From an uncultured Clostridia bacterium (lineage in GTDB: Bacteria > Bacillota > Clostridia > Lachnospirales > Lachnospiraceae), in the NCBI GenBank assembly GCA_946626755.1, contig CAMOUW010000011.1, forward strand, positions 1 to 32,925: a stretch of DNA of 32,925 bases, in the 5' to 3' direction. The notes beneath the pieces were generated by a model that ran no database searches, had not been told where the DNA came from, and was given only the letters and a program-made list of their open reading frames with translations. Made by a program: the position numbers and the translations under genes. This document shows, piece after piece, positions 4,788 to 31,100 of this stretch. The number at the start of each line of letters is the position of its first letter. Position 1 is the first letter of the stretch.

Positions 4788-5054
4788 TTAACCCGGTATT
4801 TCATCCGAAACTTTTCTCTTTCTGAATCGTATAACTACATCAGAAAGCTTTATCTCGTCTCTATCCTGTATCTCTTTTTCTTCCCCGCCGGACAGCTTCC
4901 CACCGTTTATAAAGGTTCCGTTGGCAGAATTTTCATCCTTTATATACACTTTCTCTGTCCCGGGATCCACATGGATACTTGCATGAAGGCGCCCTACCGT
5001 ATTTTTATCGGAAACCTTCAGATCGTATCGTTTTACATTATCCATTAATCTCAC
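4788..5054 (-). CDS. FHA-domain protein, apparently N-terminally truncated
   Basis: VGRLHASIHVDPGTEKVYIKDENSANGTFINGGKL matches the FHA core (S/GRxHA...D..S.NGTF.NG), but the first strands and the usual IGR motif are absent and an in-frame stop lies just upstream. Start is GTG at 5054 or ATG at 5045. Confidence 0.65.
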   Translation of the reverse strand: MRLMDNVKRYDLKVSDKNTVGRLHASIHVDPGTEKVYIKDENSANGTFINGGKLSGGEEKEIQDRDEIKLSDVVIRFRKRKVSDEIPG

Positions 5055-5213
5055 ATACTTTCTGCTAAGATTTTTTGATCAAAATACTGTTTTATTACAA
5101 AACTGTAAACCTCTCATGAAGACATTCATTTCTTGTTAATTGATTATTGTAAACCTGTATAAAAAATTTAGTAAGAAATATATTGTTTATATTTATATTT
5201 TTTCATATTCCTA

Positions 5214-6521
5214 CTATATACAAAACCCAAGTGTCAGTTCTTCTTCCGGCTCTTCCGCCGGTTCCGGCATCTCATCACCCCCGAGAGCCTCCATTACATT
5301 TACATACTCCGGATGATCTGCCGGGGTATATTTTTTTACCTTTCTTGCCGACTCCCCCCTGACAAAAAGATATGCCTCCTTCGTGCTCATATCCAGTATG
5401 GCTTTTACAGGCACATCTGCCTTCACGGACATCATTTCGGCGGTTTTTATGTCCTGCCCCCCCAGATACAGGCAGGTGTCACAGTTGTTTACGATAGTCC
5501 GCGCCCGGTCACTGCCGTACAGCCCGTCCAGCTGGGTTATGCTCTGAACCACCAGACTCACACTGATCTGCCTTGAGCGTATTACGGAAATGATGTTGTC
5601 AAAATCCGGTACCTTAGTGTTCGTGGCGAAATCATCCATGATAAAACGCACCGGCACGGGAAGCCGGCACCCCGGATGGTTTTCCGCCTCGTCACAGAGC
5701 ATCTGCAGAGCCTGGGTGTAAAATACATTTACCAGCTTATCCATGGAACGGTCGGTGTCGCTGATGTTTAAGAAAACCGCCGTTTTCTTTCTGCCTATGG
5801 CTTTGATATCCACCTTATCCGGGTTGGTGACCATCCTTTTTGTCCCGTCAAAAGCAAATATATCCAGCGCCTCCTCTGTAAATGCTTCTATCCCGGCGCT
5901 CATTTTCTCCGCATCGGAATTTCGTTTTATCATTTTATACCTGGCCAGGGCGAAGCTGTCCGGGTCACTGTGCTCCAGCCGGGCAAACATCTTCCCTGCC
6001 GACTCCTTCGTCCATTCAGAAAACATCCGCAGAACAGAGACTAAATTCCGCTCCTTTGGCGACATTTTCTCAAGTACGTAAGCGATCAAAACCACCAGAA
6101 GCGAGCGGCCCTGCTGATCCCAGAAGGGCTCCTTTTCATTCATGTCCGGCGCTATGCAGGCGGCAAGTTTCAGTATGTCCTGCTCGCTGTACCTGCCGGT
6201 GGCGGAGTTGTAACGTATGTTATCCAGTGGGTTAAAGCCGCAGGAATTCAGGGTATTTTTAAAATCCAACACCTTCACTTTATACCCCTTGTTTTTCAGA
6301 TAAGGTGTAAATGTGTCCGCCAGATTCCCTTTTGTGTCGGCGATGATCATGCTCTCATTCGCCTGAAGTATATTTGGGATCACATATCCTGTGGTCTTTC
6401 CGGATCCACTGGGGCCGATTATAAGATCGTTGTTGTTCAGCCCGGTTTCACGGGTGTTGTTTGACTGCAGTATCCCTTTTGCAAGGATGCGGTATGTGTC
6501 CCGGTATTTTTCCTTTTTCAT
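5214..6521 (-). CDS. Soluble VirD4/TraG-like type IV coupling protein ATPase (copy 1)
   Basis: Walker A GPSGSGKT; Walker B-like VRFIMDDFATN; TraG-family FNPLDNIRYN and NNCDTCLYLGGQD. The start at 6521 has RBS gaggagaaacgacc; the ORF extends to 6611 without support. No N-terminal TM helices. Confidence 0.85.
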   Translation of the reverse strand: MKKEKYRDTYRILAKGILQSNNTRETGLNNNDLIIGPSGSGKTTGYVIPNILQANESMIIADTKGNLADTFTPYLKNKGYKVKVLDFKNTLNSCGFNPLDNIRYNSATGRYSEQDILKLAACIAPDMNEKEPFWDQQGRSLLVVLIAYVLEKMSPKERNLVSVLRMFSEWTKESAGKMFARLEHSDPDSFALARYKMIKRNSDAEKMSAGIEAFTEEALDIFAFDGTKRMVTNPDKVDIKAIGRKKTAVFLNISDTDRSMDKLVNVFYTQALQMLCDEAENHPGCRLPVPVRFIMDDFATNTKVPDFDNIISVIRSRQISVSLVVQSITQLDGLYGSDRARTIVNNCDTCLYLGGQDIKTAEMMSVKADVPVKAILDMSTKEAYLFVRGESARKVKKYTPADHPEYVNVMEALGGDEMPEPAEEPEEELTLGFCI

Positions 6522-6616
6522 GGTCGTTTCTCCTCGTATAACAGACAAAACCATTTCCTCCGGGATTATACTAACACACACGCTTTTTTTAAAAACTGAA
6601 CACCCCGGCAAAAATA

Positions 6617-6722: not shown

Positions 6723-6902
6723 TCATTTCTTTCTCCATAATCCGGTAGGTATTATTATCGCTATTGCTCCGCCGTTAAATATGTAAGATAAAACCTTTGC
6801 AAGTATATTTGGCTTTTTCTTCTCCGGTTCTGTCGCATCTGTCTTATCTGTCTGCAATAAAACTTCTTCGGTTTTTATTTCGTCAGCTGCTTTTACCAGC
6901 TG
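6723..6902 (-). pseudogene. Remnant of a second copy of the 514-aa surface protein (C-terminal 59 codons)
   Basis: Minus strand reads QLVKAADEIKTEEVLLQTDKTDATEPEKKKPNILAKVLSYIFNGGAIAIIIPTGLWRKK*, matching NSILLRVLSYIFNGGAIAIIIPAGFFRRK at the 514-aa protein's C-terminus. No start codon. Confidence 0.75.
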
Positions 6903-8611: not shown

Positions 8612-9685
8612 TTAAAAATCTCTGTACCGTTCCAGCCTGTTTAACAATAACCTGTACATCTCTTCTGCCAGTTCGACCGGTTCAAGCACCATCACCGAAG
8701 CCCCGTAACCAAGCAGCCACCGTTTAAATGAACCCATCCCGCACACATCATCCTCATAATAAGCAATTTCCTCATTTTCAGGGTCATCATACAGCTTCCC
8801 GAACCGTCTGCCGTTGGTCTCTGTTTTTATCTTTTCGTATATATTTCCCGTGTCCTTTGAGATCCTGATCTTTACATGTCTGATAACATACCCGCCCTTC
8901 TGCGCCATTTCATCCGGACAAATATCACCACCCCAGATATAGTCAAGCACATCAAGCTCGCCCGGCTTCACCGGCGGCACTTTTTCATCGTTATGGACCT
9001 TAAGATTTCTTATGCGGTCGATCTTTTTAAGCAGAATATGTGCCGCACTGTCTTTACTTCCCGACATGTTTTTGCCCCCTTCGACAGGCTCAGGGAGCGC
9101 TGAGTTTAAAACACAGTCTTTGCGCCCAGGTATGGTTCTGCTCCCTTCGACAAGCTCACGTCGCTCTGTTTTTACAACACATTTTTTACTCCCGGGTATC
9201 CCTGCAAGGTACACTCTCCCGGCAAACAGGTCTGTGTAAATTTGTCTCGGAACTAACCCTTCCTCTTTTTCCTCCCCTGTCTCTGTTATATATGTAAATG
9301 TCACCGGATGACCCTGCTCTATGGCCATCTGTAGAGGTCCCATGATCCCCGGCGGCATCTCTGCTACCGCTAACGCCGGCTTTTTGATCCATACGGAATC
9401 GGAAAGGTGGGACACATTGGCAGCTCTGGCAAATACATTTTTCTCAAATGGCGAAATATTTACCGCCACCACATCACCTGCATATTCCGGCAGGAAAACA
9501 TCAGGATCTATTCTGATCGGATGTTCATCTCCGGTGATCGCAAGGAGATCTTTTTTAACCACCTCCGTCGGCACATTTAAAGAAGAGCTTATCTCATTTA
9601 CGGTAAGCCCCTCCGGAAAACGTTCCGACATAAGAAGCGCCATCAATTCCGACAATCTTTTATATGCATTACTAAAATCGCCCAT
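8612..9685 (-). CDS. WYL-domain transcriptional regulator (second gene of a tandem pair)
   Basis: 357 aa; N-terminal winged-HTH-like GLTVNEISSSLNVPTEVVKKDL; WYL region PVTFTYITETGEEKEEGLVPRQIY...FAGRVYLAG; IDRIRNLKV. Confidence 0.8.
   Translation of the reverse strand: MGDFSNAYKRLSELMALLMSERFPEGLTVNEISSSLNVPTEVVKKDLLAITGDEHPIRIDPDVFLPEYAGDVVAVNISPFEKNVFARAANVSHLSDSVWIKKPALAVAEMPPGIMGPLQMAIEQGHPVTFTYITETGEEKEEGLVPRQIYTDLFAGRVYLAGIPGSKKCVVKTERRELVEGSRTIPGRKDCVLNSALPEPVEGGKNMSGSKDSAAHILLKKIDRIRNLKVHNDEKVPPVKPGELDVLDYIWGGDICPDEMAQKGGYVIRHVKIRISKDTGNIYEKIKTETNGRRFGKLYDDPENEEIAYYEDDVCGMGSFKRWLLGYGASVMVLEPVELAEEMYRLLLNRLERYRDF
9055..9198. repeat. In-frame 66-bp tandem duplication with a TTCGACARGCTCA palindromic-repeat-like core, inside the WYL gene
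   Basis: CCCTTCGACAGGCTCAGGGAGCG and CCCTTCGACAAGCTCACGTCGC are exactly 66 bp apart (TTCGACA at 9080 and 9146); protein IPGSKKCVVKTERRELVEGSRT / IPGRKDCVLNSALPEPVEGGKN / MSGSKDS. Confidence 0.7.
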
Positions 9686-9706: not shown

Positions 9707-11155
9707 TCAAACCTGCTTGGGATCATAACCGAGTATTTCCCTGTACCCCTCGATCATTTCCTTTGTCCTGGCTATCAGATGCTCCCTGCTTTTTTCAGGT
9801 TTGACGATAACCGCAGCATCCCCCAGGCTTCTTACAACCCTTAAAAAATCATGGGTTCCCATGATTTTGTCACTGTATCTGATCCACCCGGTCACGTTGC
9901 TCCCTTTCAAATACGAACCTGCTGCAGGACTGTTCCCTTCCTGTTTACCTGTTTCCTTTTTACCTTCATTTATATCCTGTTTTCCTGCGTACAGCTCCGG
10001 CTTACTATTTCCATGTATAAATGTTACCTCGGCCGTCTCATTTCTCGCCTTTTTAAGACTCCTGACCATATCCCGTATTTCAGGCCGGTCCTCAAACAGC
10101 ACCTCCACTTCACAGGGCTCATCAGGAGCGGCGGACCACATTTTGCTGAAAATATCCCTGTACCTGCGGCTTTCATATATATCATTGCTGACAGTTACAT
10201 TTACAGACATCTCTTTAACGGCGCTGAACTTCAGGTTTTTACGCACCCATTTGCCCTTGGCTTTGACCTCTCCCAGAAGATAAAAGGCGTTGGTCTCCAC
10301 ATTAAAGATGACCAGGGCGGTTTTGAAAATGTAATCCTTTGTCTTTTCCTTTTCCCGGTATTTTATGTCGAGGGCGTATTTCCCAAATGGCAGCCCCAGC
10401 AACTCATCCAGCTTCTGCGCCGATTCCTCCGGGATATCATTTCTCCTGCCTGTGCTTTTGTAAACTCCCGAAGCTTCTTCATATATGTCAGGACTAACCG
10501 CCGCAATCTTTTCATTTATGGTCTTAAGGGTGGTCCCCAGTTCTTCAGCATATCCCCCGTCGTAGTAATAAGCGTTGAAATCCATTACCGCCTCTTTGTC
10601 GATAAAAGAGATAACCGGGGCGCTGTCGCAAATGTGATAAAACAGCTTATTGCTGCTCCTTCCGGAATCCTCCGGCAGGCTCTCTCCCGATTCAATAAGA
10701 TCATTTATAGTATGCCGGCTGATATATTTCATGTCTACAAGACCGTCCAGAAGCCGTTTCATTTTACTCTTACTTACGGGGGCAGCCACATTTACATACT
10801 CATTGTAAATGTCCAGGGCGCTCATATACCGGTCACAGCCCCCGGACAGTATCACCATTATAAACCAGCGCGCCACCGTATCCCGGGTGACCGGTTCAAA
10901 TCCATCCGTTTCCGGCTCCGAAGGATTAAATTCCGGGTTTAGAAGCCGGTAGCCTTCGGTGTCGGATACGATCTCATATCCTTCATGTACAAGGGTCTTT
11001 ATATCAGAACTCAAAGTTGCTTTGGAAATATCCTTCCCGGAGCTTTTCATTATTGCTTTCCTGATATCTGCACCATACACTCTGTTTTCCGGAGCCCGGA
11101 TGAGCATATCTGTGATAAGTTTTCTTCTCTCCCTGATCTTTTCTGCAACTGACAT
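9707..11155 (-). CDS. WYL-domain transcriptional regulator (first gene of a tandem pair)
   Basis: HTH_11-like N-terminus (ITDMLIRAPENRVYGADIRKAIMKSSGKDISKATLSSDIKTLVHEGYEI) plus WYL/WCX-like core (YALDIKYREKEKTKDYIFKTALVIFNVETNAFYLLGEV). Ends 21 bp before the next gene starts; start MSVAEK at 11155 preferred over 11176. Confidence 0.75.
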   Translation of the reverse strand: MSVAEKIRERRKLITDMLIRAPENRVYGADIRKAIMKSSGKDISKATLSSDIKTLVHEGYEIVSDTEGYRLLNPEFNPSEPETDGFEPVTRDTVARWFIMVILSGGCDRYMSALDIYNEYVNVAAPVSKSKMKRLLDGLVDMKYISRHTINDLIESGESLPEDSGRSSNKLFYHICDSAPVISFIDKEAVMDFNAYYYDGGYAEELGTTLKTINEKIAAVSPDIYEEASGVYKSTGRRNDIPEESAQKLDELLGLPFGKYALDIKYREKEKTKDYIFKTALVIFNVETNAFYLLGEVKAKGKWVRKNLKFSAVKEMSVNVTVSNDIYESRRYRDIFSKMWSAAPDEPCEVEVLFEDRPEIRDMVRSLKKARNETAEVTFIHGNSKPELYAGKQDINEGKKETGKQEGNSPAAGSYLKGSNVTGWIRYSDKIMGTHDFLRVVRSLGDAAVIVKPEKSREHLIARTKEMIEGYREILGYDPKQV

Positions 11156-11358
11156 ATTTATTCTCCGGTGAAGCACACTGTTTTTATGTTATGACCTAAG
11201 GAACAAAAGAATTTTCGGTTTTGACCTTGGTATTATACTATTATACAGTATTTCAGCATGTTCATGCATAAACTTTAACTAAAATGTAAAATGCTCTTTG
11301 ACGTTGTTTTTTCAGTCATCCAATTTGTGGTTCACTGCGATCCTAAAATCATTAAACT

Positions 11359-11409
11359 TTGACACTTAGTAAGTCATGTCGTATAATACGCAAACAAAAG
11401 ATACATGAC
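11359..11409 (+). promoter_or_regulatory. Consensus promoter and inverted-repeat operator candidate for XRE copy 2
   Basis: TTGACA (11359-11364), 17 bp, TATAAT (11382-11387); GTCATGT (11373-11379) and ACATGAC (11403-11409) flank the expected start site. Confidence 0.7.
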
Positions 11410-11461: not shown

Positions 11462-11761
11462 ATGTTTATAAATAAAGCCCCTGACGGGAAAAACAACATA
11501 TGCGGCTCCAATGTGGCGCACCTGCGAAAAGCTATGGGCATTTCCCAGCGGGAACTTGCCGACCGCCTGCAGTCTGCCGGTCTGGACATTGAAAAAAACG
11601 GCGTCCAGAGGATCGAGTCCGGACACCGTTTCGTAACTGATATCGAGCTGGGATTCCTTTCTGCTGTTCTGTCAGTAGATATCGAAACTCTTCTGCAGTA
11701 TAAAGTCCCGGAAGTCATCTGCCATGATCCGGATACGCCTTCTTGGGAGCCGGAGATGTAA
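11462..11761 (+). CDS. XRE-family HTH regulator (copy 2)
   Basis: 99 aa; LRKAMGISQRELADRLQSAGLDIEKNGVQRIESGHRFVTDIELGFLS; near-identical core to copy 1. Confidence 0.9.
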   Translation: MFINKAPDGKNNICGSNVAHLRKAMGISQRELADRLQSAGLDIEKNGVQRIESGHRFVTDIELGFLSAVLSVDIETLLQYKVPEVICHDPDTPSWEPEM

Positions 11762-11770
11762 CAGGTTTAG

Positions 11771-13528
11771 TCATACCGTTTTATCACTGACCTCCACCCT
11801 CAGATTCCCCCACTCGCAAACCGCTGCTCCCTCTGTCAGGGAGTCTTTTTTTATATTTACGATATAATTCACGCCGGTTCCCGGTTCAAGGACACAAGGG
11901 GTCCCGTTACGTCTCATGTCTACATCACCGTCGTAAAGCAAAGTATTCATATAAGCGCCCTTCGTACCTGCTGTTTTTTCCATTTCTGACGCTGCATTTT
12001 CGTAATTATCACTGTCTCCGGCTATTTTACCCTCGCCTGTCATTACATTTACATAGATACTGTTGTGCTTAACCGCCTCTGAAGTACCGTTCGTGAGGCG
12101 TATCAGCAGCGATACAGATCCGTCCGGCTCGGCCCATGCGAGAACGCACTCTTCCGTTTCCTGGCCCGGAATGACCGCCGTTTCATCCTTAAATGAATAG
12201 TCAGCTTCATCAGCAAGATACGTATTTCTGCTTTCAGCCACCGCAGAGTTGTACCCTTCCGGATAATCCCCGGTATACTTACTTATAGCGGCGATCTTTT
12301 CAAGCGCCACTTTTAGTTCACCGTCTTCTTCTGCAAATGTGAAAAGACGGGATCTGCTTTTTATCAAACCGGAGTTTCCGGAAACCTGTCCTTTATAAAA
12401 CACTGCCGACACTCCCAGTGTATTTTCATCCTTCACAACAGGCACAAAAAGGAAACTCTCTCCCACTCCCGCAAGCCACCTCCTGTCATTTTCTATATAA
12501 TCATCCAGAGCCCCGTCGTCCCTGTATTTTGCAGTGTAAAACTGCTTAAAATCCTCAAGATCCGTCTTCCCCGCAATATCCTTAAGTTCACTCAAAAGCC
12601 GTTTTGCAGCCTCCGGGTCTATATCCCCCGCTGCAAACGCCCCGGGCTGAAACTCTTCCACACTTACCCCTGTAATACGCGCGCCATTTCCCTTACCTGC
12701 AAATGCTGCTATGACCAGCCCTGCTGCAAGCGCTGCCCCGCCAACTGCAAACCCTGTTATCAGTGCACTTTTTCTGTGCTTTTCAGAACTGATGTTGCGG
12801 TTTCGTGACGTTTGCTTTTTTATCTCTTGCAAATCCCCGTTGTGGTCGCTACTGAAATAATAAAACTCACCGTCATCCCCCTGCTCCACCGGGATATTCA
12901 GTTCATTGCAGGCCCGTATAAAATCATCAACGCTACATCCTTTAAATCCTTTAGATGGCAGTTCTTCGCTGACACTGTACATTTGCCTTAATTTATCATC
13001 TGCATAACGGCTTTCGCACTCACATATACGGTCATAATAAGGCACTCCGGAGCTGTCACGGACTATCAGAAAATACTTGGATACCTCCTTCATATCTCTG
13101 ATAGCCTCCGGCACCCCGTAACTGCCGTCCCCAAGATCAGTGCTCCATTCACCTTCTGCCTCTCCTGCACGGAGATGCATATATTTATTCCTGTAATTAT
13201 CTATCAAACGGGTGACTGCCTGTGTAAATGTGTTTCTCCACTCCCTGTTCTCTGCTTCCGTACCCAGATCATAAAACCCAAAATGTGACAGCACCACATC
13301 CCGGTACTCTGAACGGAATTTAAAAAACTTCAGGCAGGCCTGAATATCAAGATCCTCAAGACATTTCTCATCTGTTATGATCGGAATCTTTTCCTCTTTT
13401 TCACGGGCTATAAATACTTCAAACCATCCCGGCCCGTATTTTGAGCCCATACCTCTGTCTATGGCTCCCATAAGACAGGAAAGCAGATACTTTCCCGCCA
13501 GGAGCATTTCAGCTTCTTGTAATTTCAT
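11771..13528 (-). CDS. Membrane-anchored protein with N-terminal Swt1-like HEPN domain and C-terminal extracytoplasmic domain
   Basis: 585 aa; AGKYLLSCLMGAIDRGMGSKYGPGWFEVF and TFTQAVTRLIDNYRNKYMHLRAG (R-x4-H) resemble Swt1-type HEPN; single TM SALITGFAVGGAALAAGLVIAAFAG. Confidence 0.7.
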   Translation of the reverse strand: MKLQEAEMLLAGKYLLSCLMGAIDRGMGSKYGPGWFEVFIAREKEEKIPIITDEKCLEDLDIQACLKFFKFRSEYRDVVLSHFGFYDLGTEAENREWRNTFTQAVTRLIDNYRNKYMHLRAGEAEGEWSTDLGDGSYGVPEAIRDMKEVSKYFLIVRDSSGVPYYDRICECESRYADDKLRQMYSVSEELPSKGFKGCSVDDFIRACNELNIPVEQGDDGEFYYFSSDHNGDLQEIKKQTSRNRNISSEKHRKSALITGFAVGGAALAAGLVIAAFAGKGNGARITGVSVEEFQPGAFAAGDIDPEAAKRLLSELKDIAGKTDLEDFKQFYTAKYRDDGALDDYIENDRRWLAGVGESFLFVPVVKDENTLGVSAVFYKGQVSGNSGLIKSRSRLFTFAEEDGELKVALEKIAAISKYTGDYPEGYNSAVAESRNTYLADEADYSFKDETAVIPGQETEECVLAWAEPDGSVSLLIRLTNGTSEAVKHNSIYVNVMTGEGKIAGDSDNYENAASEMEKTAGTKGAYMNTLLYDGDVDMRRNGTPCVLEPGTGVNYIVNIKKDSLTEGAAVCEWGNLRVEVSDKTV

Positions 13529-13561: not shown

Positions 13562-13601
13562 ATAAAAACATCAGAGTTTTTTTCCTGAAAATTCTCTGAT
13601 G
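13562..13601 (-). terminator. Intrinsic terminator downstream of clpP
   Basis: CATCAGAG (13569-13576) / CTCTGATG (13594-13601), followed on the minus strand by TTTTTATTTTTT. Confidence 0.75.
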
Positions 13602-13662
13602 TCATTTTACAATAGTTAAACTGTATTTACAAACTATTTCCGTAGCTTCTAATCATTCTGTA

Positions 13663-14235
13663 TTATATGATCTCCGTTGCGATGCCTGACTCCACCGCCT
13701 CTTCAGCACTGAAAACACTGTCTTTTTTAGTCTTGGCATATACACTCTGGAGGGTCATGCCGGTCTGCTTTGCGATGATCTTTCCAAGGGTTTTTCGTAC
13801 CTTCATCAGATCATTTACCTGTTCCATAAGCTGCATAGGCTTCTGTCCGCCCATATCCATGGAACCAAATGACGGATCGTGGATCAGTATCTGGGAATGA
13901 GGCAGCATCTTGCGCTTCGTGCCGTGCATAAAGATTATGGCGCCCATACTCGCAGCCATACCTATGCAGATAGTAGTGACCGGGGACTTCATCTGATTTA
14001 TAAAGTCGCATATTACCAGTCCGGCAGTCACCTCACCTCCGGGGCTGGAGATATAGATCTCTATCTCCCTGCCCGGATCATGTTGATCCAGATACATGAG
14101 TTGTTTAATAATATCTGCTGAGCTTTGGGATGTGACAGGTTCGCACATAAATATTTTCCTGTCATTATACATATGGTCTTCAATTGATATGGCCTGAAGG
14201 CCTCTTGATGTTTCTTCGATGATATGTGTACTCAT
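13663..14235 (-). CDS. clpP: ClpP-family protease (accessory copy)
   Basis: SRGLQAISIEDHMYNDRKIFM; IYISSPGGEVTAGL; GMAASMGAIIF (Ser); HSQILIHDP (His); KKDSVFSAEEAVESG (Asp). Start at 14235 with RBS aaggagaaaaaatct; the upstream ORF extension to 14337 is not supported. Confidence 0.9.
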   Translation of the reverse strand: MSTHIIEETSRGLQAISIEDHMYNDRKIFMCEPVTSQSSADIIKQLMYLDQHDPGREIEIYISSPGGEVTAGLVICDFINQMKSPVTTICIGMAASMGAIIFMHGTKRKMLPHSQILIHDPSFGSMDMGGQKPMQLMEQVNDLMKVRKTLGKIIAKQTGMTLQSVYAKTKKDSVFSAEEAVESGIATEII

Positions 14236-14372
14236 AGATTTTTTCTCCTTTTTCGTTTTTGTTTTATCACAAGGGTACCCTTCTTCCACCCGGCGAAGCT
14301 GAGTGGCGAAGCGCACCCAAATTTTGTCGAAGCGCATCTAAACTTATCACATAATTCATACCGTAAAGCATT

Positions 14373-15626
14373 TTATACCATTTCTGCTTCAATCACTTCT
14401 TTTAGCGCCAGTGCCCTCTCATATTCCGGATGGTAAGACACATCATATCTTTCCGCCTTTTGCGGTTTATGTCCGCGTATAAAGAGATAGGCCTCAGACA
14501 GTTCCATGTTCTGGATAGTGTCGGTGGTACGATTTGCTTTTTGGGCGATCAGACTTATAGTAGTATTATCCTGTCCGCCAAGATAAAGCATTGTATCACA
14601 GTTATTGATTATGGTTCTTGATCTGCCGTCTTTATATATACTGTCAAGCTGACTGATACTCTGCAGGATTATGCTTACAGATATTTCTCTTGAGCGGATG
14701 ACGGATATAATATTGTCGAAATCCGGAATACGTGCGTTTGTAGCAAAATCATCCAGGATAAATCTCACCGGTACAGGCAGGCTGCAGCCTTCATGACTTT
14801 CCGCCTCCTCGAAAAGCATCTGAAGTGCCTGGGTATAAAAAATATTTACCAACTTATCCATAGAACGGTCTACGTCGCTGATATTCAGAAAAAGTGCTGT
14901 TTTCTCCCGGCCTATGGCTTTAATATCTATTTTATCTTTGTTGGTACTCATTCTTTTAGTCCCGGCAAATGAAAAAATATCCAGTGCCTGGGCGGCAAAT
15001 GTTTCAATACAGGCATTTGTTTTTTCTGCACCGAAATTTTTTTTGATAATATGATATTTTGACACGGCAAAGCTGTCCGGATTTCTTCTTTCTGCTTCGG
15101 CAAATAATTTCTCAGCATTATCTTTGTTCCAATGGGAAAATAACTTCTGGACTGAAACCAGATTTCTGTCTTCCTTCTCTACATTTTCCAAAACATATCC
15201 TATCAGGGCGGCAAGGAGAGTTCTGCCCGACTCATCCCAGTAACGGTCATTATCAGTCAGATTAGGAGCAATGCTTTTTACCAGCCTGAGGATATCCTGC
15301 TCGTTATAACTGTCAGTTGCCGGATTGTATTTTATATTATCAAGAGGGTTGAATCCGCAGGATCTCATGGTATCTTTAAAGTCCATAACCAGAACTTTAT
15401 ATCCCTTTTCTTTTAAATAGGGAGTAAATGTATCTGCCAGATCACCTTTAGTGTCTGCGATCACCATGCTTTCGTTTGCCTGAAGGATATTGGGGATTAC
15501 ATATCCTCTGGTCTTTCCGGCACCGCTGGGTCCTATAATAAGGTCGTTGTTGTTTATTTTTGTAACATGGGTGTTATTTGACTGTGTTATATCTTTTGCT
15601 AATATACGAAAAGCATCTTTATTCAT
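14373..15626 (-). CDS. Soluble VirD4/TraG-like coupling protein ATPase (copy 2)
   Basis: 417 aa; GPSGAGKT, VRFILDDFATN, NNCDTMLYLGGQD; roughly two-thirds identical by eye to 5214..6521; no TM helices. Confidence 0.9.
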   Translation of the reverse strand: MNKDAFRILAKDITQSNNTHVTKINNNDLIIGPSGAGKTRGYVIPNILQANESMVIADTKGDLADTFTPYLKEKGYKVLVMDFKDTMRSCGFNPLDNIKYNPATDSYNEQDILRLVKSIAPNLTDNDRYWDESGRTLLAALIGYVLENVEKEDRNLVSVQKLFSHWNKDNAEKLFAEAERRNPDSFAVSKYHIIKKNFGAEKTNACIETFAAQALDIFSFAGTKRMSTNKDKIDIKAIGREKTALFLNISDVDRSMDKLVNIFYTQALQMLFEEAESHEGCSLPVPVRFILDDFATNARIPDFDNIISVIRSREISVSIILQSISQLDSIYKDGRSRTIINNCDTMLYLGGQDNTTISLIAQKANRTTDTIQNMELSEAYLFIRGHKPQKAERYDVSYHPEYERALALKEVIEAEMV

Positions 15627-15689: not shown

Positions 15690-16160
15690 TTATCTGAATG
15701 GCAGATCTCCGTAAAGATCGTCTGATATCCAAAAATCATCGGAAGCTTCCGCTCCGTGATCTGCACCGGTTTTACGAGCCGGTGAGAAACGAAAACACGG
15801 CTCCACAGGTGTTTTGGTTTTTAAACGGCTCAACATCAATATCTTCATGGGATAAATGAAGACCGACATCAATACAGGCTTAAATAATCTGTAGTTATCA
15901 TCCTTATACACTTTCAGAATGATATCTTTTATGTATGTCCATTTCTTTTTTTCTTCTTCATCATAAGACTCATATATAGTAGATATATATTTATCATAAG
16001 TTTTTGCAAAATCCTTACCCAGGTATTTTTTCGTCAGTTTTTTGAACTCGTCGAAAAACACCTCATAATGCAGCATTATGTACTCTTTGAGAACAGGATT
16101 TTTAACGCAGTTAAATTCCTGCAGCAATTCATCCATATTCTTTTTTTTATTATTTTTCAC
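15690..16160 (-). CDS. Hypothetical protein, 156 aa
   Basis: ORF with aaaggagaaaaaag upstream; same orientation as and adjacent to ATPase copy 2. Confidence 0.7.
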   Translation of the reverse strand: MKNNKKKNMDELLQEFNCVKNPVLKEYIMLHYEVFFDEFKKLTKKYLGKDFAKTYDKYISTIYESYDEEEKKKWTYIKDIILKVYKDDNYRLFKPVLMSVFIYPMKILMLSRLKTKTPVEPCFRFSPARKTGADHGAEASDDFWISDDLYGDLPFR

Positions 16161-16192
16161 TTTTTTCTCCTTTTCCTTAGCTGATCTTTTTT

Positions 16193-16513
16193 TCAGGCAG
16201 GCTTTATTCCGTGAAATAGTAATAAAAGGAAATCCCGGGGTTCTTTGAGCAGTTCACTTGAAATATCCTCTGACTCCATTACCAGCACATCGCCTATCCT
16301 CATTTTTTTGAAGTCTTCTTTAGTCGGCTTCTCTTTGCCGTTGCCCCCGGTCACATGATCATATAAGTAGTTGACAAATACATCATGATCTTTCCCCTGA
16401 TAGAACTCTTCTATGGTCAGATCATAAAAAACCCCGGTCACTTCTAAAAGATACTTGTCATCGAGTTTCGTACCGCTTAAATATTCGGTCAGTTCTTTTG
16501 CTGTTCTTTTCAT
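16193..16513 (-). CDS. Hypothetical protein, about 106 aa
   Basis: Start at MKRTAKEL (16513) with ggaggtggtgat upstream; first gene of the probable minus-strand operon. Confidence 0.7.
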   Translation of the reverse strand: MKRTAKELTEYLSGTKLDDKYLLEVTGVFYDLTIEEFYQGKDHDVFVNYLYDHVTGGNGKEKPTKEDFKKMRIGDVLVMESEDISSELLKEPRDFLLLLFHGIKPA

Positions 16514-16804
16514 TATCACCACCTCCGTTTCTTGATGTTTGCCCCGATCCGTCTCACGGGTATGATAACAGTATAGTCATCTTCCGTAAGCCGGTAAATC
16601 TCTTTTTTGTTTTCTTCGCATATTTTACGAACTATTTGACTTTTTATATGTTATCAACTAAAATAACCTTAAGAAAAAAAATTTTCACTATCAGTGTAAA
16701 TGAGGATCATTTCACATAAACCATTCCCAAAAGTGATACTAATCACCGGTCCGTGGAATCCCTAGTCAACTGGTCAATCAGTATATACAGGAAAGGAAGA
16801 AATA

Positions 16805-18016
16805 ATGTATACCGGAAAAAAGGAAGAACAAAAAAGAAAAGAAGATTTTTACCGTGACAAATTTGATGAGGAACTGGTAAAACTCCGCCGGCTTATATTC
16901 GGTCACGGTATATCGATAAAAAAATACATCACTACTGATAAAGGCAATTACAGCGAAACGAAAACCAGAAAATTTATCGAAGAACTTATGGGATATATCA
17001 GGGAATACAGATTTGAGGAAGACAACAAACTATCTGTATTGAGCACAAAAGGAGTTATAGATTTATTCAGTAACGTTGATAAAGAAAAAACAAAAGAATT
17101 AATAAAAAAATACGAAACACAAAAAAAGGAATATATAGAGACCTCAAAGAAAACATATAAGCAGGAGGATATTTTTTTTACAAATCTGCTTTACTGCACG
17201 ATCCGCATAGCCCTTATTGAAAATCCCGGAAATCCTGTGTTGGGTGACATTTCCGATGCGCTGAAAACTCTGGAAGATGTGTATAATGACACTTTCTATT
17301 TAGATTATGATCATTACGGATTTATCGATCATGATTTCTCAGAGTCTCTAGTGTCTTTTCATAGCGGATTTTATGAAGATATCATTTCAGCTATACTGAA
17401 CTTTTGCACATTTCAAGATAATCTGTTTGACAAAATAAATGCCTATTATTTCATTCTGACAAACGGACATATTCCTTTGAAGACAGATATTTCAAAATAC
17501 GAAAAGACAGACACTGAGCATTTTAAATTACTGAAAGAGAGAATCCCTTATTTAGAGGATGAAGAAAAGGCATTTAAGGAATTACAGAAACAATTTCCGA
17601 AAAAAAAGAATAATCTCGATCTTGATTGGGAAGAGGTTTTGGAAGATGATGAATATCCGCACCATGTTATCATTGATGATGATCTTTACGAGGAACCACC
17701 CTGGCCGGCAGATGCACTTTTAAAAATACAAAAAAGCTTTAAAGATTCTGATCTGTTTATTAAATCTTGCGAACTTTTCCGCTTTTATCTGAACGCACAG
17801 AAAACTAAGGATTTCAGAAAGCACCACAGCGATGACATTTCTCTTCAACAAAAATACGGATATGAGGATATGTATAAAAAAACAGATTACGCTATTGAAC
17901 GGTTTATTTCAGAACATGATCTTAATATCCTTTCAGACAGCGATAAATGTGTCTACATTTACACCCTTCTTAAACAGGCCGAAGATATAATCAACGAAAA
18001 GATAGGAGGGGAATAA
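16805..18016 (+). CDS. Hypothetical charged protein, 403 aa, no recognised domain
   Basis: Long ORF with RBS aggaaaggaag; coupled to the next ORF. Confidence 0.85.
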   Translation: MYTGKKEEQKRKEDFYRDKFDEELVKLRRLIFGHGISIKKYITTDKGNYSETKTRKFIEELMGYIREYRFEEDNKLSVLSTKGVIDLFSNVDKEKTKELIKKYETQKKEYIETSKKTYKQEDIFFTNLLYCTIRIALIENPGNPVLGDISDALKTLEDVYNDTFYLDYDHYGFIDHDFSESLVSFHSGFYEDIISAILNFCTFQDNLFDKINAYYFILTNGHIPLKTDISKYEKTDTEHFKLLKERIPYLEDEEKAFKELQKQFPKKKNNLDLDWEEVLEDDEYPHHVIIDDDLYEEPPWPADALLKIQKSFKDSDLFIKSCELFRFYLNAQKTKDFRKHHSDDISLQQKYGYEDMYKKTDYAIERFISEHDLNILSDSDKCVYIYTLLKQAEDIINEKIGGE

Positions 18017-18017
18017 T

Positions 18018-19268
18018 ATGGGAGCATTTGAACCCGGGCGCGCCGTATCCGGCATACGGAACGATTACCTGGAAAAACTGGAAAGATCAGAAATATATGA
18101 AGAATTCAGATCTGAAATACCGAAATTTGATCATTCTAAAAACAGATATCCGGTAGACGATAAAAAAACCAAGTTTTTTTACAAAAAGCTTATGCAGCGT
18201 GTGAATGTTTTTTTCGAACTTCCGGAAAAAGAAAAGCAAAAAGGTTTATTGGATTTTTTAGTTTTTTTACTGGAAAATCTCAAAAAAAATAATAAGCTTT
18301 ATAAAGTGGCTGTAAAATATACCGGACCAAATAAAAAAACGATCACACCACGAGCATCAAAAGAATTAGAAGAAGAACTTGAAAATATCACTGATATCAT
18401 ATTGGGACAATTAAAACCGGAATATTCTCTCCGGCGCCGGAAAGGATGTATATCATCTCTTAGCGGTCTGCTCCCTCTTGTGTTAAAGGCTCTGAAAGGG
18501 GAAAAAGACGCCGGTTATAATCTCCCGACAAAAACTCAGGTCATGAAAAATGTATCATTACTGGATGATGATCTTCCCGTGATAGTGACAGATCTTATAG
18601 CCGAAGTTGCTGTTCATCACAAAGTTAAGGAATATTTTTATAACACTTCAGCAAGCACCGCAAAGGGAAACAAAAAAGTATCGCGCAACAAAACTATATC
18701 CCGTTTAGAAGCTTTTGCAATGGATAACAATTTCAACGAAACTTATGATCATGTGGCGTTTGCAGATAAACACAGTATATACGAAATATACAGGGAGCTG
18801 CTCAAAAAAGAAGAACAGGTATCCAAAGACTTTTTCTTACCTGTAGCCTCTGACTGTTTTGGAAATATCATAGTGATCTCGGAACGTAACGCTCTTATTT
18901 CTTTATTTCCGGAAAAACGTATTAAAACAAAAGATTTTAAGCTATGGTTTGCTATACTGTCCCCCCGGTATAAAAAAACACAAAATAATTCAAGGATCAA
19001 CTATACATGTGCGGATGTTTATAATAATTATGAATATGCTTTGTATGAACTCGGTCTGATGACATCTCGTTTCCCTGACAGTCCGATCATCCCCGGAAAC
19101 CGGTTCTATACAGGCATCATGAATAAATATCGTAAAATGGCGGATCTTCGTGATGCCATTGACAGTAAAAAGTTTCTTGATGATTGTAAGAAGTACGAAA
19201 AGGAATTATCTAAAGAAATGGACTCAAAAGATAATAAACACAGACATACCGGTCCCGGCTCTTTGTAA
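18018..19268 (+). CDS. Hypothetical protein, 416 aa, no recognised domain
   Basis: Start 1 nt after the previous stop, with RBS aggagggg inside the end of the upstream gene. Confidence 0.85.
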   Translation: MGAFEPGRAVSGIRNDYLEKLERSEIYEEFRSEIPKFDHSKNRYPVDDKKTKFFYKKLMQRVNVFFELPEKEKQKGLLDFLVFLLENLKKNNKLYKVAVKYTGPNKKTITPRASKELEEELENITDIILGQLKPEYSLRRRKGCISSLSGLLPLVLKALKGEKDAGYNLPTKTQVMKNVSLLDDDLPVIVTDLIAEVAVHHKVKEYFYNTSASTAKGNKKVSRNKTISRLEAFAMDNNFNETYDHVAFADKHSIYEIYRELLKKEEQVSKDFFLPVASDCFGNIIVISERNALISLFPEKRIKTKDFKLWFAILSPRYKKTQNNSRINYTCADVYNNYEYALYELGLMTSRFPDSPIIPGNRFYTGIMNKYRKMADLRDAIDSKKFLDDCKKYEKELSKEMDSKDNKHRHTGPGSL

Positions 19269-25142: not shown

Positions 25143-28100
25143 TTATCCCTTATGTTTTTTACGATTGTTTAAAAAAACTATCAATGCTGCCATAATTCCT
25201 ACTGCGGAAAGTGACAATGCTATTATCCATCCGAGATTGTTTTTATCTCCTGTATGTACTGCTTCAGCTTTATACTCAATCACCTTATTATCTTCTCTTG
25301 AATATTTTTCCACACTTGTATCATCTGACATAACTGGCTCATCTGCATTTGTTATTGTCTTTACTTTTGAATTCGTAATTTCTTTCTCACTGTCATTATC
25401 TTTATTATCAATATCCACTCGCTTCTGCTCTTCCGGCTTCTGTTCCTCTGGTTTCTGCTCCTCCGGCTTCTGTTCTTCCGGTTTCTGCTCCTCCGGCTTC
25501 TGTTCTTCCGGTTTCTGCTCTTCAGGTTTCTGCTCTTCACTACCGGAATCTTCATTTTGACTTCCTGTTTCTGGTATGATCTCAATATCTATATGATTTA
25601 AGTCATTTGCACAGACTCTTGTGCGCTCTCCATTCTCATTTTCAGTGGCTTCCTTAGTAACCTTCCATTCACCCCAGGCATGACCTAATGGTTCGGTATT
25701 TCTTGTTTCGCTGTGAGGCGCCCCATTATTACATGTTCTAATCTCCTCGCCGGAAGAAGTACATGTTGCAGGCAAGGACATTGTCCAATCGCTCCAATTA
25801 TGGCCTATTGCAGGGATAATTATTTCTGTTTCTTTTATCACCTGAGTTCCTTCAGAATCTTTATAAATTTCACCACACTCAGAACATGTATAGTATTCTA
25901 TATTTCCGTCCTTTTCGCAGGTAGGAGCTTTGGACTCCGTTTTTATAAGACTGTGTCCCTTCGGAGGTATTTCCTGTTCCTCCCTGTGATTACTATCATT
26001 TTTGCATATGCGTACTTCAGATCCTTTTTCTGTACATGAGGGTTCCTTGCTGACTGTCCAGTCCCCCCATTCATGACCTATTGCGGTCAAGACCACAGAA
26101 TTCTTATCCTCTATTTTCATATCCCCCTGTTCATCCTCGAATAACAGTTGGCATCCCGTACACACATAATGTGCTTTTATGCCTGTAGTATCACAGGTAG
26201 GTTCAACTGCCTTAACAAATATCATATTGTGCACATGCTCAAGTTTGGGTATCACTTCAGTTTCTATATGTGATGCATCCCTTTTACATGTTCTGGTACG
26301 GGTACCTTCTTCAAATTCGGTTGCCTCTTTTATTACCTGCCAATCATTCCATTCATGACCTGTTGCTGGTATGTCTTCAGTATAGTTATGTGTAGGATCA
26401 TTTTTGCAGGTAAATGTTTTTATTCCTATTTCCACACAACCGGCTTCTTTTGTAACACTTTCCTCGTGGTCATGACCGGTCATGGGTATAACAACACTTG
26501 CTTTATCAGTAATTTCTTTTGCGCCTTCCTTATCCTCGTACCATTTCTCACATTTGCTGCAAATGTAATATTCAATATTTCCGTCTTCAGTACATTTGGG
26601 ATCCTTTGCTAATACAGTCTGCATATCATGGGTATGCTTAACCGTCACTTCACAACTGTCGCTTATCCAGTAATCTTCATCTGAACGCACTGTTATCGTG
26701 GCTGTACCCTCTTTTAATGCCTTGAGCTTTCCGTCCTCAACGGTGACTATTTCATCATCCGAAGACTCCCACCAGACAGCTTTGCTCCAAGTAGTATCTT
26801 CAGGAACATATGTCACCGTCAATTCATCTTCGCTATCTGGTTCCATCGTAAGCTCATTTTTATCAAGCTTAATTTCTTCCAGCGAAATGGGCGGATCCGG
26901 CACTACTCTTGTCATCATTATTTTATAATTGTAGTCACCCTCTATTTCTTCAGGAAGTTTAAAGGTAAGATTTTTTCCATATTCCGATATATATGAAACG
27001 TTCGAATTGTAGCCAATCTCATATTTTTTGTTAGTATCGGTTACACTCGTCAGAATCAGTTTTGCTTCTGTGTTATTATCCGAATACCAGTTATAATCAT
27101 CATAATTATACAGTTCCGATCCGTATTCATCCTTAAAGTTTGATAAATAGAATTCTACGTCTGATCCCTTTTTTGTTTCAAATATGTTGGTGTTATTTGA
27201 ATCTATATTAGAAATGTGTACATTGGCAGCGAAATTTTCTCCTATTTTTATTTCAGTATTTGTATGTTCTGCCACATCAACTGATCTTTTCAGTGAAACG
27301 CTCATGTCATCATAAGTTGATGCACTAATAGTATATTCATGTTCTCCCGGATCCACTACAACCTTATCGCCGCTTTCTTCAATTCTTTCGTGATGCCAGC
27401 TCCAATTGTCATCATACCACTCCAAATAAACAGATGTGTAGTAATCAGGATATTCTACGCTTACAGTAGTAATGTTCTCCGCTGCCACAGGTAAAATAAT
27501 GTCCACATCTGTACCGGATACGACTATATCCTGTACATCCTCTAGAACAGTTCCGTTAGATCTGTATTTTGTGGTTACAGTATATTCGCCGGTAGCAGTC
27601 TTTATGCTGTCTTTATCTATACTATACGAAACATTTGACCAAACATTTTCCGGCAACTTACGTTTTATAGTGCGGCTTATAATCTGTATACTTTCGGGAT
27701 CATACACATAATTAATACTATTATAATCATTCCTCAGCTCAGCCAGATCAGCTTTATCTTCAGAAAGGGTCTTCAAATCCATCTCATAAATAGCCTCGTC
27801 ATCCCTGAAGTAAAGAATCGCCTTATCTGACTGCTGCAACTGTTTATTTTTATCAGCTGAGAACACCAAAGAATAATTGTTGTCATTATGATTACTGCTG
27901 AAATACATTTCATCATAACCTTCTCCTGAATATGCCAACAATCTTTCATTTTCTGTGTCGCCTGAGCAATTGCTAAGCGTAATTGTCTTTGTGTTATCTT
28001 TCAGGAGTATCACACCGTCTCCCTTTGTCATGTCCAATTCGTCTTTTTGTGAATCATATGCTCCCGAAACATAAAATGAAGTACTAAGTTCTATGCTGTC

Positions 28101-31100
28101 GATACCGTCACCTATAAGTATTTCCTCGTTATAATTGTCTATGTCATAACCATAATATAACGGTATCCCATTTATCTTTTCCGCATTTCTTATGCAAACG
28201 TCACTAAAATCTTCTGTGCGCTCAACTGTTATCTTTTTAGCCCCTTCTATGGAAAGAGTTTTTCCTTTAAGCTCTGATACCGGGATCAACTCAAGTCCGT
28301 TATCGTAATCACATAAGAGATAATACTTTCCGTTGTTCAGATCCACATCGTCAGAGGTGGGATAAAGGCTACATTTATATACACCATTATCCTCATCTTC
28401 TGTTCTTTTTAACTCATACGAATCCTCGTCATAATATCGTTTTTCCCCACTATTAACCCCCTCATAATACTCATCTTCTTCATACTCGTTTCCAAGTCTT
28501 AAAAGCCGGAAATAAGGATAATTATTTGTCTTTATTTCAAAATCTATGGTATCACGTACCTTTACCTCAAGATTTTCCGTTTTCGTGATTACCGCTTCTG
28601 ATGTTTTGTTTTCTTTGTACGTAACCTCTGCCGTCAACTTATGTATACCCTTGGTCAGCTTCTCTGCCGGTACAAATGCAGAGGACTCGCCGGTGCCACT
28701 TACATACTCATTTTCAGCCAACACTTCATTATCCACTTTGAAAACCACTTTCTGAACAGTGGAATCCTTATTGATCTGGCATTTCACAAATGCGCCTTCA
28801 TCAGTATCCGCAAGAGTCAGGGTTTCAGGAGTGATCTCGGTGATCTCAGGAACCTCATAACGTTTGAAATTAAGAGTCTTTTCTGCTTTATTGTTTTCGC
28901 CCGTACGTTCATCCACATCAACGGTCTTGTTGGTCAACGTAACAGAAACGTTATGAGAATCATTTGTAGGAGTGAAGTCAAATTCTACTGTGTCATATGA
29001 AAATGCACCAATGTACACATTGTCCTCATGATAGACATTTTGCCCGTCTACCGTTACATCCACATCCGTCCAGCCTCCGCTGGAACCACGGTTATATATC
29101 TTAATTGAAACCGGATTATTGTCTCCCACATATGCGTCTTTATCGGCAGATATGTTTTCAGGGTATATAGCAAAATCAGGTAACGCTCTTATATCATCCA
29201 AGGAATCCAAAGATCCCACATACGCAATTTTAGTTTTGTCGGGAATGTATATATTATATTCTGTGTCTGTGGCTATCGTATGAGAACCCGGGTTTGTGTT
29301 AAATACTCTCTTTATAGTATTTGAATCGTTCATTTTAAATGAATCAGTCAGCATACTTACAATAAATAACTCGGTCAATCCATCCGTACTCCTGCTTCCA
29401 AGACTTTCCCCATTGACAATAAATTCCTGCGCCGTTACTTCGGTATCTGTATAATCCCCTTCAATGCCGCTGACCCTTCCCGTTGTTACTACATATCTAT
29501 GGTTGCCATAAACATAACTGATACTACTGTCTGTATCCTTTTTTTCAACAACTTGATCAGAATCTGTTTCTGCCAAACGATAAGAGTCTTTTTCAACTTG
29601 GATAGATTTAACTTTTTTCCCAGACATTTTTTTATTTTGATGATTACTGTTATTTTGAAGTTTTTCTTTGTTAAGGGTTACAGCTTGAACATAATTATAC
29701 ATAGCGTGGTTTTCCCAACTTGAATCTATTAGCAAATCATTATTCTCCCTAAAATATATCAAGTCCGTATGCCCGTATTTCGCATATGGAGAACTAACAC
29801 CTATTAAGCTAGAAACCAGCGTGCTTGAACTATTAAATGAATCTTTTTCATTATAGATATTATGTATATTTTCAAATCCTTTAGATATATTTGATTTCTC
29901 TTTTAAAATTGCAATTTGCATATCTTGAAGCGCTATTCCATTATAAACAACATTAATAGCACCAAATGTATAAACATAGATATCATTTTTAGTAACCTTA
30001 TCTGACCACCATTTATCTTTTCCTACATTTTTGTTTATTACTGCCCCGATTAAATTAGCTGCAGCACCACCTAGACTATGCCCTGTAACTATTATTTTTA
30101 AATTTTTAGCATTCTTAATTCTGACATGTGTATTTATATAATCATCTACCGCTGAAAGAACTTTTTCACTGAAAGACTTTACATTTTCTTTAACAATATC
30201 TCCATAATATGGAAAACTGGGCACTCTTAACCAATCGCCTAGCTTCTCAAGCGTTGTTTGCGTTCCCCTGCAATCTATAACAAGAACCGTTGTTTCCTTT
30301 CCATCTATTTCTATGTGTTTATGTGCAAGATAAAAAGTTCCTCCCCCATCTTTTTCATCATTGTTGCAATGCTTAACAAGGTCAAACTTAAACTTATCCA
30401 ATCCTGTCCCTTTATTATCGTATGCTGCATCACTCAGTTTGGCACAATATAGAGCCATATCATGGTCATACTTAGTAGCTGATGTAATAAAAGAACTCGA
30501 GGGCATAGGTTCAAACGATTCACTTGAACTGCTATTGCTATTGTTATAGTTTTTGGGGGATACCATTGAATTCGTTTGAGTAACTAAAGCTGAATCGTTA
30601 CTTTCGTCATCTATTTTTATACCATTTCCAAAACCCATTTTAATGTTGTTTGTTACAGATCCTGCATTTGTACACTGCTCACCATATTGTTTAGCCATAT
30701 AATACAGACTGTCCTCTGAATATAATCCTTCTCTCATATTATTAACAATGTTATACAACTTATTTATTATTTCTAATCCGGGTCCCCAACTAAGAGACAA
30801 TGGATTGAGAGCTTTAGAAATTGGAGATTTTTTATGAAAATCAATGATAACGCCAAGTAATGTTAAACAAATACCTCCCCTGGCTGCATTTTTTTTATGT
30901 TCACTGGCATTGGGATCAGTTAAGGTTTTTACATTAAAGGCAGTAAGTATACCGTCATATATATACCTGGCATCTCCTATTTTAGGTATAGCCCCAAATG
31001 CATCAATTGCATACTCGTATCCTTTTTTATTTGCCGACTTATTTGCTTTTACAAATGCTGATAAAGCATCATCTGCTTCTTTTTTTCGTATTTTCTTTTT

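Follow-up and report, generated by a model that had tools for sequence, protein, structure and literature searches.

A predicted membrane-tethered protein with a probable Swt1-like HEPN domain and a modular outer domain from an uncultured Lachnospiraceae bacterium

Results

Gene organization of the locus

The gene under study lies in a 32,925-nt stretch of DNA (the window) from an uncultured, gut-type Lachnospiraceae bacterium. It is an open reading frame on the minus strand (11771..13528) with an ATG start and 585 codons for amino acids, and its translation contains the peptides YGPGWFEV and TFTQAVTRLIDNYRNKYMH. From the amino to the carboxy terminus, the encoded protein, a membrane-tethered HEPN protein by its predicted features, can be divided as follows (all coordinates on the minus strand). 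A Swt1-like HEPN domain (residues ~8-155; 13064..13507), delimited by hhalign and a sub-threshold match to PF18731, carries the catalytic-type motif RNKYMH (R113-x4-H118; 13175..13192), which was assigned from conservation and from the alignment with Swt1-HEPN domains. Next to it comes a small alpha/beta domain in juxtamembrane position (residues ~182-240; 12809..12985), modelled by AF2 with pLDDT 75-92, and then a single TM helix (residues ~256-274; 12707..12763). The remainder forms a two-part ectodomain, the first part of which (residues ~301-420; 12269..12628) has relatives in L003 and G091, and the second part of which (residues ~421-585; 11774..12268) is beta-rich and recurs elsewhere.

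On the same strand, the HEPN gene is flanked on one side by genes for two WYL-type regulators, WYL1 (9707..11176), which has the same order in L005 and L022, and WYL2 (8612..9685), likewise a conserved neighbour. On the other side lie genes for a ClpP-family protease (13663..14337; PF00574, E 1e-49), a VirD4-like ATPase devoid of TM segments (14373..15626; NF045973) and two small proteins (15690..16522), small2 (15690-16160) and small1 (16193-16522), homologues of which are located beside VirD4 in L015/L005 and L022. Between the genes for ClpP and the HEPN protein there is a hairpin with a U-rich tail (13562..13610, minus strand; -13.6 kcal/mol, z -3.2), probably the terminator of the small1-small2-VirD4-ClpP unit. 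Further away, the window encodes a surface-type protein of 2468 aa (25143-32549) that contains a class 3 lipase domain and Big_2 and is rich in repeats at its carboxy terminus.

Distribution of relatives and conservation of the neighbourhood

Of the 11 genomes of the genus, three contain relatives of the HEPN protein by profile search, and none was detected outside the genus among 397 genomes of the family. Plasmids, phages and viral contigs, including IMG/VR, did not yield a relative either. Apart from the gene in the window, there are orthologues in the uncultured Lachnospiraceae MAG RUG12934 (L005:6001-7653) and in a second other species of the genus (L022:8966-10636). One of these two species also harbours a paralogue with 43% identity (L082:1358-3046), which sits on a 4.8-kb contig, flanked by genes for an aldo-keto reductase and a putative lipoprotein and apart from the WYL/small/VirD4/FHA gene set.

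Conserved in the three species are the genes for the HEPN protein, WYL1, WYL2, small1, small2, the TM-less VirD4-like ATPase and an FHA protein. An XRE gene accompanies this set on the opposite strand; in the window it is found at 11462, downstream of a perfect TTGACA-17-TATAAT promoter-like site (11359-11387). No conserved antitoxin-like partner is present beside the HEPN genes, and according to the neighbour lists (window, L005, L022 and L083) none of the four genes adjoins a nucleotidyltransferase (MNT) antitoxin.

In the window the set is rearranged. A HipB/HipA pair lies between WYL2 and a second VirD4-like copy, the FHA protein has shrunk to 88 aa, and a coiled-coil gene remnant remains at 6726-6866, all of which are signs of rearrangement. 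The second copy (4788-6611), with HipB/HipA upstream, is 65% identical to the one at 14373-15626, and the genome contains no others. In L015, the set is followed by genes for a Ser/Thr kinase and a PP2C. This region (L015:12041-16740), with an FHA membrane protein, a Ser/Thr kinase with a PPC-type domain and a PP2C phosphatase beside the VirD4-like gene, reads as a phosphorylation circuit tied to the HEPN locus in one species. We also noted a pair of unannotated proteins of 403 and 416 aa (16805-19268), for which no Pfam family was found; the pair recurs with its order kept in a second species (L015:1168-3799) at 29% identity.

The preliminary description placed the protein next to an ATPase and ClpP. 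Both genes are indeed present in the window, but the link with ClpP was not supported. ClpP adjoins the HEPN gene in one of three orthologous loci, i.e. the window, and is not beside it in L015/L005 or L022. On the other hand, ClpP is encoded beside a related ATPase on the same strand in all 17 loci retrieved from 15 other genera (L040-L056), and no HEPN relative was found in these genera. A more distant VirD4-like ATPase of the genus (L020) also has ClpP alongside, with small ORFs often near such pairs, whereas a conjugation-type VirD4 in L021 lacks an adjacent ClpP. The ATPase-ClpP pair is a module separate from the HEPN protein and possibly represents an unusual ATPase-protease machine. The collection of papers searched contained nothing useful on a VirD4-ClpP pair, and PMC7159879 held no relevant HEPN/ClpP/VirD4 link. 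ClpP was rejected as a partner of the HEPN protein owing to the intervening terminator and its absence at the other loci.

Relationship of the amino-terminal domain to Swt1-type HEPN domains

The full-length protein has no match in Pfam, NCBIfam or PADLOC. When residues 1-179 were compared with Pfam, HEPN_Swt1 (PF18731) was the sole family, with an E-value of 0.011 that falls under the curated cut-off. The same family was the only one matched by three of the four relatives, every Pfam match being below its cut-off. Since a direct hmmsearch with a small Swt1 model gave scores near noise, we adopted a profile-profile comparison. The yardstick consisted of 13 HEPN domains from other genomes, picked by PF18731 and independent of the query; in their alignment the R and H columns are invariant and the W column is nearly so. 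Searched against the PDB, this profile best matched a CRISPR-associated protein, Csm6 and HepS. It is therefore a fair yardstick, as it retrieves HEPN nucleases.

Alignment of the query family with the Swt1-HEPN profile by hhalign gave an E-value of 1e-5 and a score of 37.1. The highest scores in the controls were 21.1 among 400 column shuffles and 20.1 among ~280 unrelated natural proteins, after the single equal of the query score, a fragment of the same gene, had been set aside. The landmarks YG-W, DIQACL and RN-x3-H align in order, and R113 and H118 fall in the columns where R and H never vary in the Swt1-HEPN set. The R-x4-H pattern alone was rejected as evidence for a HEPN domain, as shuffling the whole protein produces it in 21% of cases, and shuffling residues 1-180 produces R-x4-6-H in 35%. 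RNKYMH rises above chance because it is placed within a calibrated profile match and is invariant in the four relatives. R113 and H118 are unchanged in the three orthologues and the paralogue, where the motif reads RNKYMH or RNRYMH; its R, N, Y, M and H, as well as W35, are invariant down to 43% identity, in a set of four sequences from one genus that is too small to part catalytic from structural conservation. Within the protein, conservation is highest in the HEPN region, which has the lowest dN/dS (~0.06-0.12, with dS near saturation). The gene is under purifying selection.

AF2 prediction of residues 1-245 from three sequences (pLDDT 73.5) yielded a model that is all-helical up to residue 120, where a long helix (91-120) ends in the motif. 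Foldseek searches with this model and with the full-length model listed no HEPN structure, but weak helical or beta-sandwich matches at best. Since the PDB gave no close structure of Swt1 type, the missing HEPN match is weak contrary evidence. The Swt1-type HEPN resemblance and the conserved R and H proposed in the preliminary description are thus supported by the calibrated profile match and by the alignment of relatives; the structure search did not independently retrieve the four-helix HEPN fold. Taken together, a relationship of the amino-terminal domain to Swt1-type HEPN domains is supported, short of proof, by sequence comparison.

Membrane topology and the outer domain

In the three orthologues, the best 19-aa hydropathy window corresponds to residues 256-274 (score 2.1-2.5). 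Three to six K/R residues occur in the 15 residues before the TM helix and one or two after it. Because the positive charge prevails before the helix, the protein is predicted to be oriented N-in/C-out, so that the HEPN region of this inner-membrane protein would face the cytoplasm and the ~300 residues after the helix would lie on the outer side. Hydropathy and charge bias thus agree with the earlier proposal of one TM helix, a cytoplasmic HEPN-like domain and an external carboxy-terminal domain of ~300 aa.

In two other genera, residues ~305-504 have matches in three kinds of protein, namely a lipoprotein, a protein with a signal peptide and a large TM protein, the anchors being judged from sequence. 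The outer module thus occurs on different amino termini, in the manner of sensor or binding domains. By this comparison, the outer domain is modular and appears to be a swappable unit. The structure search suggested earlier for the carboxy-terminal domain pointed weakly to a beta-sandwich. At L079:5795-10961 there are two nearby genes with outer-domain relatives, one encoding a lipoprotein and the other a large TM protein, whose amino terminus is vaguely sigma-factor-like and is not recognized by Pfam.

For the juxtamembrane domain (residues 182-240), a RacA/MerR-type winged helix was the top profile match with three sequences (E 0.062), and Foldseek also placed RacA among its better hits (E 1.1, prob 0.63). 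With four sequences the profile match fell to E 0.58 and was no longer the top one. The resemblance is a weak lead.

Discussion

As the best reading of these data, we tentatively propose a membrane HEPN RNase that is gated by its outer domain. The protein would be a single-pass inner-membrane protein comprising a cytoplasmic HEPN domain whose R-x4-H motif is intact, the juxtamembrane domain, the TM helix and the two-part outer domain. The latter would sense a ligand, the envelope state or a partner, and the signal would cross the TM helix, probably via altered dimerisation. A pair of HEPN domains may then cut RNA at the membrane and thereby slow growth. Transcription of the locus is probably controlled by the two WYL regulators and the XRE regulator. 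An abortive-infection-type effector, as suggested in the preliminary description, is possible and finds no specific support: a phage or plasmid context is absent, and PADLOC gave no match.

The main rival to the gated RNase is a Swt1-type HEPN domain that does not cut RNA and instead serves as a binding or scaffold domain linking the outer domain to WYL, FHA and VirD4-like partners, so that the protein would be a membrane-bound regulator. The operon-like order that three species share with the WYL, FHA and VirD4 genes, the downstream kinase and phosphatase in one of them and the weak RacA/MerR-like hint would suit such a role, and inactive members are known among Swt1 HEPN domains (PMC3710099). 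However, the paralogue retains R and H without these neighbours, and the RacA hint fades on adding the fourth sequence. We consider this alternative possible, but rather unlikely. It is improbable that the amino-terminal domain is not HEPN at all, with RNxxxH and YG-W matching by chance in another helical fold; the sub-cut-off Pfam matches, the Foldseek results and the frequency of R-x4-6-H in shuffles would allow for it, but the profile score far exceeds those of shuffled and natural proteins, and the landmarks align in order. That the HEPN protein belongs to the adjoining VirD4-like ATPase/ClpP machine, or is targeted by it, is very improbable: the genes are adjacent in the window and the HEPN genomes are those of the genus with the 65-66% VirD4 type, but a terminator separates ClpP and HEPN, ClpP is not beside HEPN at two other loci, 15 other genera have the pair without a HEPN relative found, and the paralogue lacks VirD4/ClpP neighbours.

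HEPN domains form one of the main classes of toxins that target RNA during conflict and stress in bacteria, and most of them act in the cytoplasm in response to internal triggers. If a HEPN domain were coupled to an outer module that also occurs on other proteins, RNA stability could be set by signals from outside the cell. Among known families, the bacterial Swt1-like HEPN domains of PF18731 share with the query YG-W, D-x3-CL and RN-x3-H in the same order and the invariant R and H. The query differs in scoring below the Pfam cut-off, in a longer insertion ahead of the motif helix and in a beta-hairpin linker after it; moreover, it is a short TM protein, whereas the PF18731 members found are mostly long proteins. 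HEPN-MNT toxin-antitoxin systems also have a HEPN domain with R-x4-6-H, but the query lacks an adjacent MNT antitoxin and is a membrane protein. By analogy, the eukaryotic membrane HEPN RNases Ire1/KEN and C6orf70 may be compared, in which a sensor lies on one side and a HEPN-type domain on the other; they belong to other HEPN families, and Ire1 contains a kinase. A bacterial Ire1-like logic, in which an outer sensor directly switches a cytoplasmic HEPN RNase via one TM helix and the ectodomain is shuffled among output domains, is conceivable but doubtful.

Bacterial membrane-associated HEPN proteins have been described in three groups by Anantharaman et al. 2013 (PMC3710099), who proposed stimulus-gated membrane HEPN RNases for other architectures and thereby already a link from external signals to RNA stability via HEPN. 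The present protein would be a compact, testable case of such a link and shares with those proteins a cytoplasmic HEPN domain on a TM segment and a possible outer sensor. In their Abi2/SWT1 membrane group, an all-alpha domain and a TM segment precede a carboxy-terminal HEPN domain, whereas in the query the HEPN domain is amino-terminal to the TM helix and the modular ectodomain of ~300 aa comes last. Thus, of the unusual architecture noted in the preliminary description, the membrane HEPN itself has been known since 2013, but the order HEPN-TM-swappable ectodomain differs from the three groups of PMC3710099, and both this exact order and the ectodomain are new compared with the examples given in that paper.
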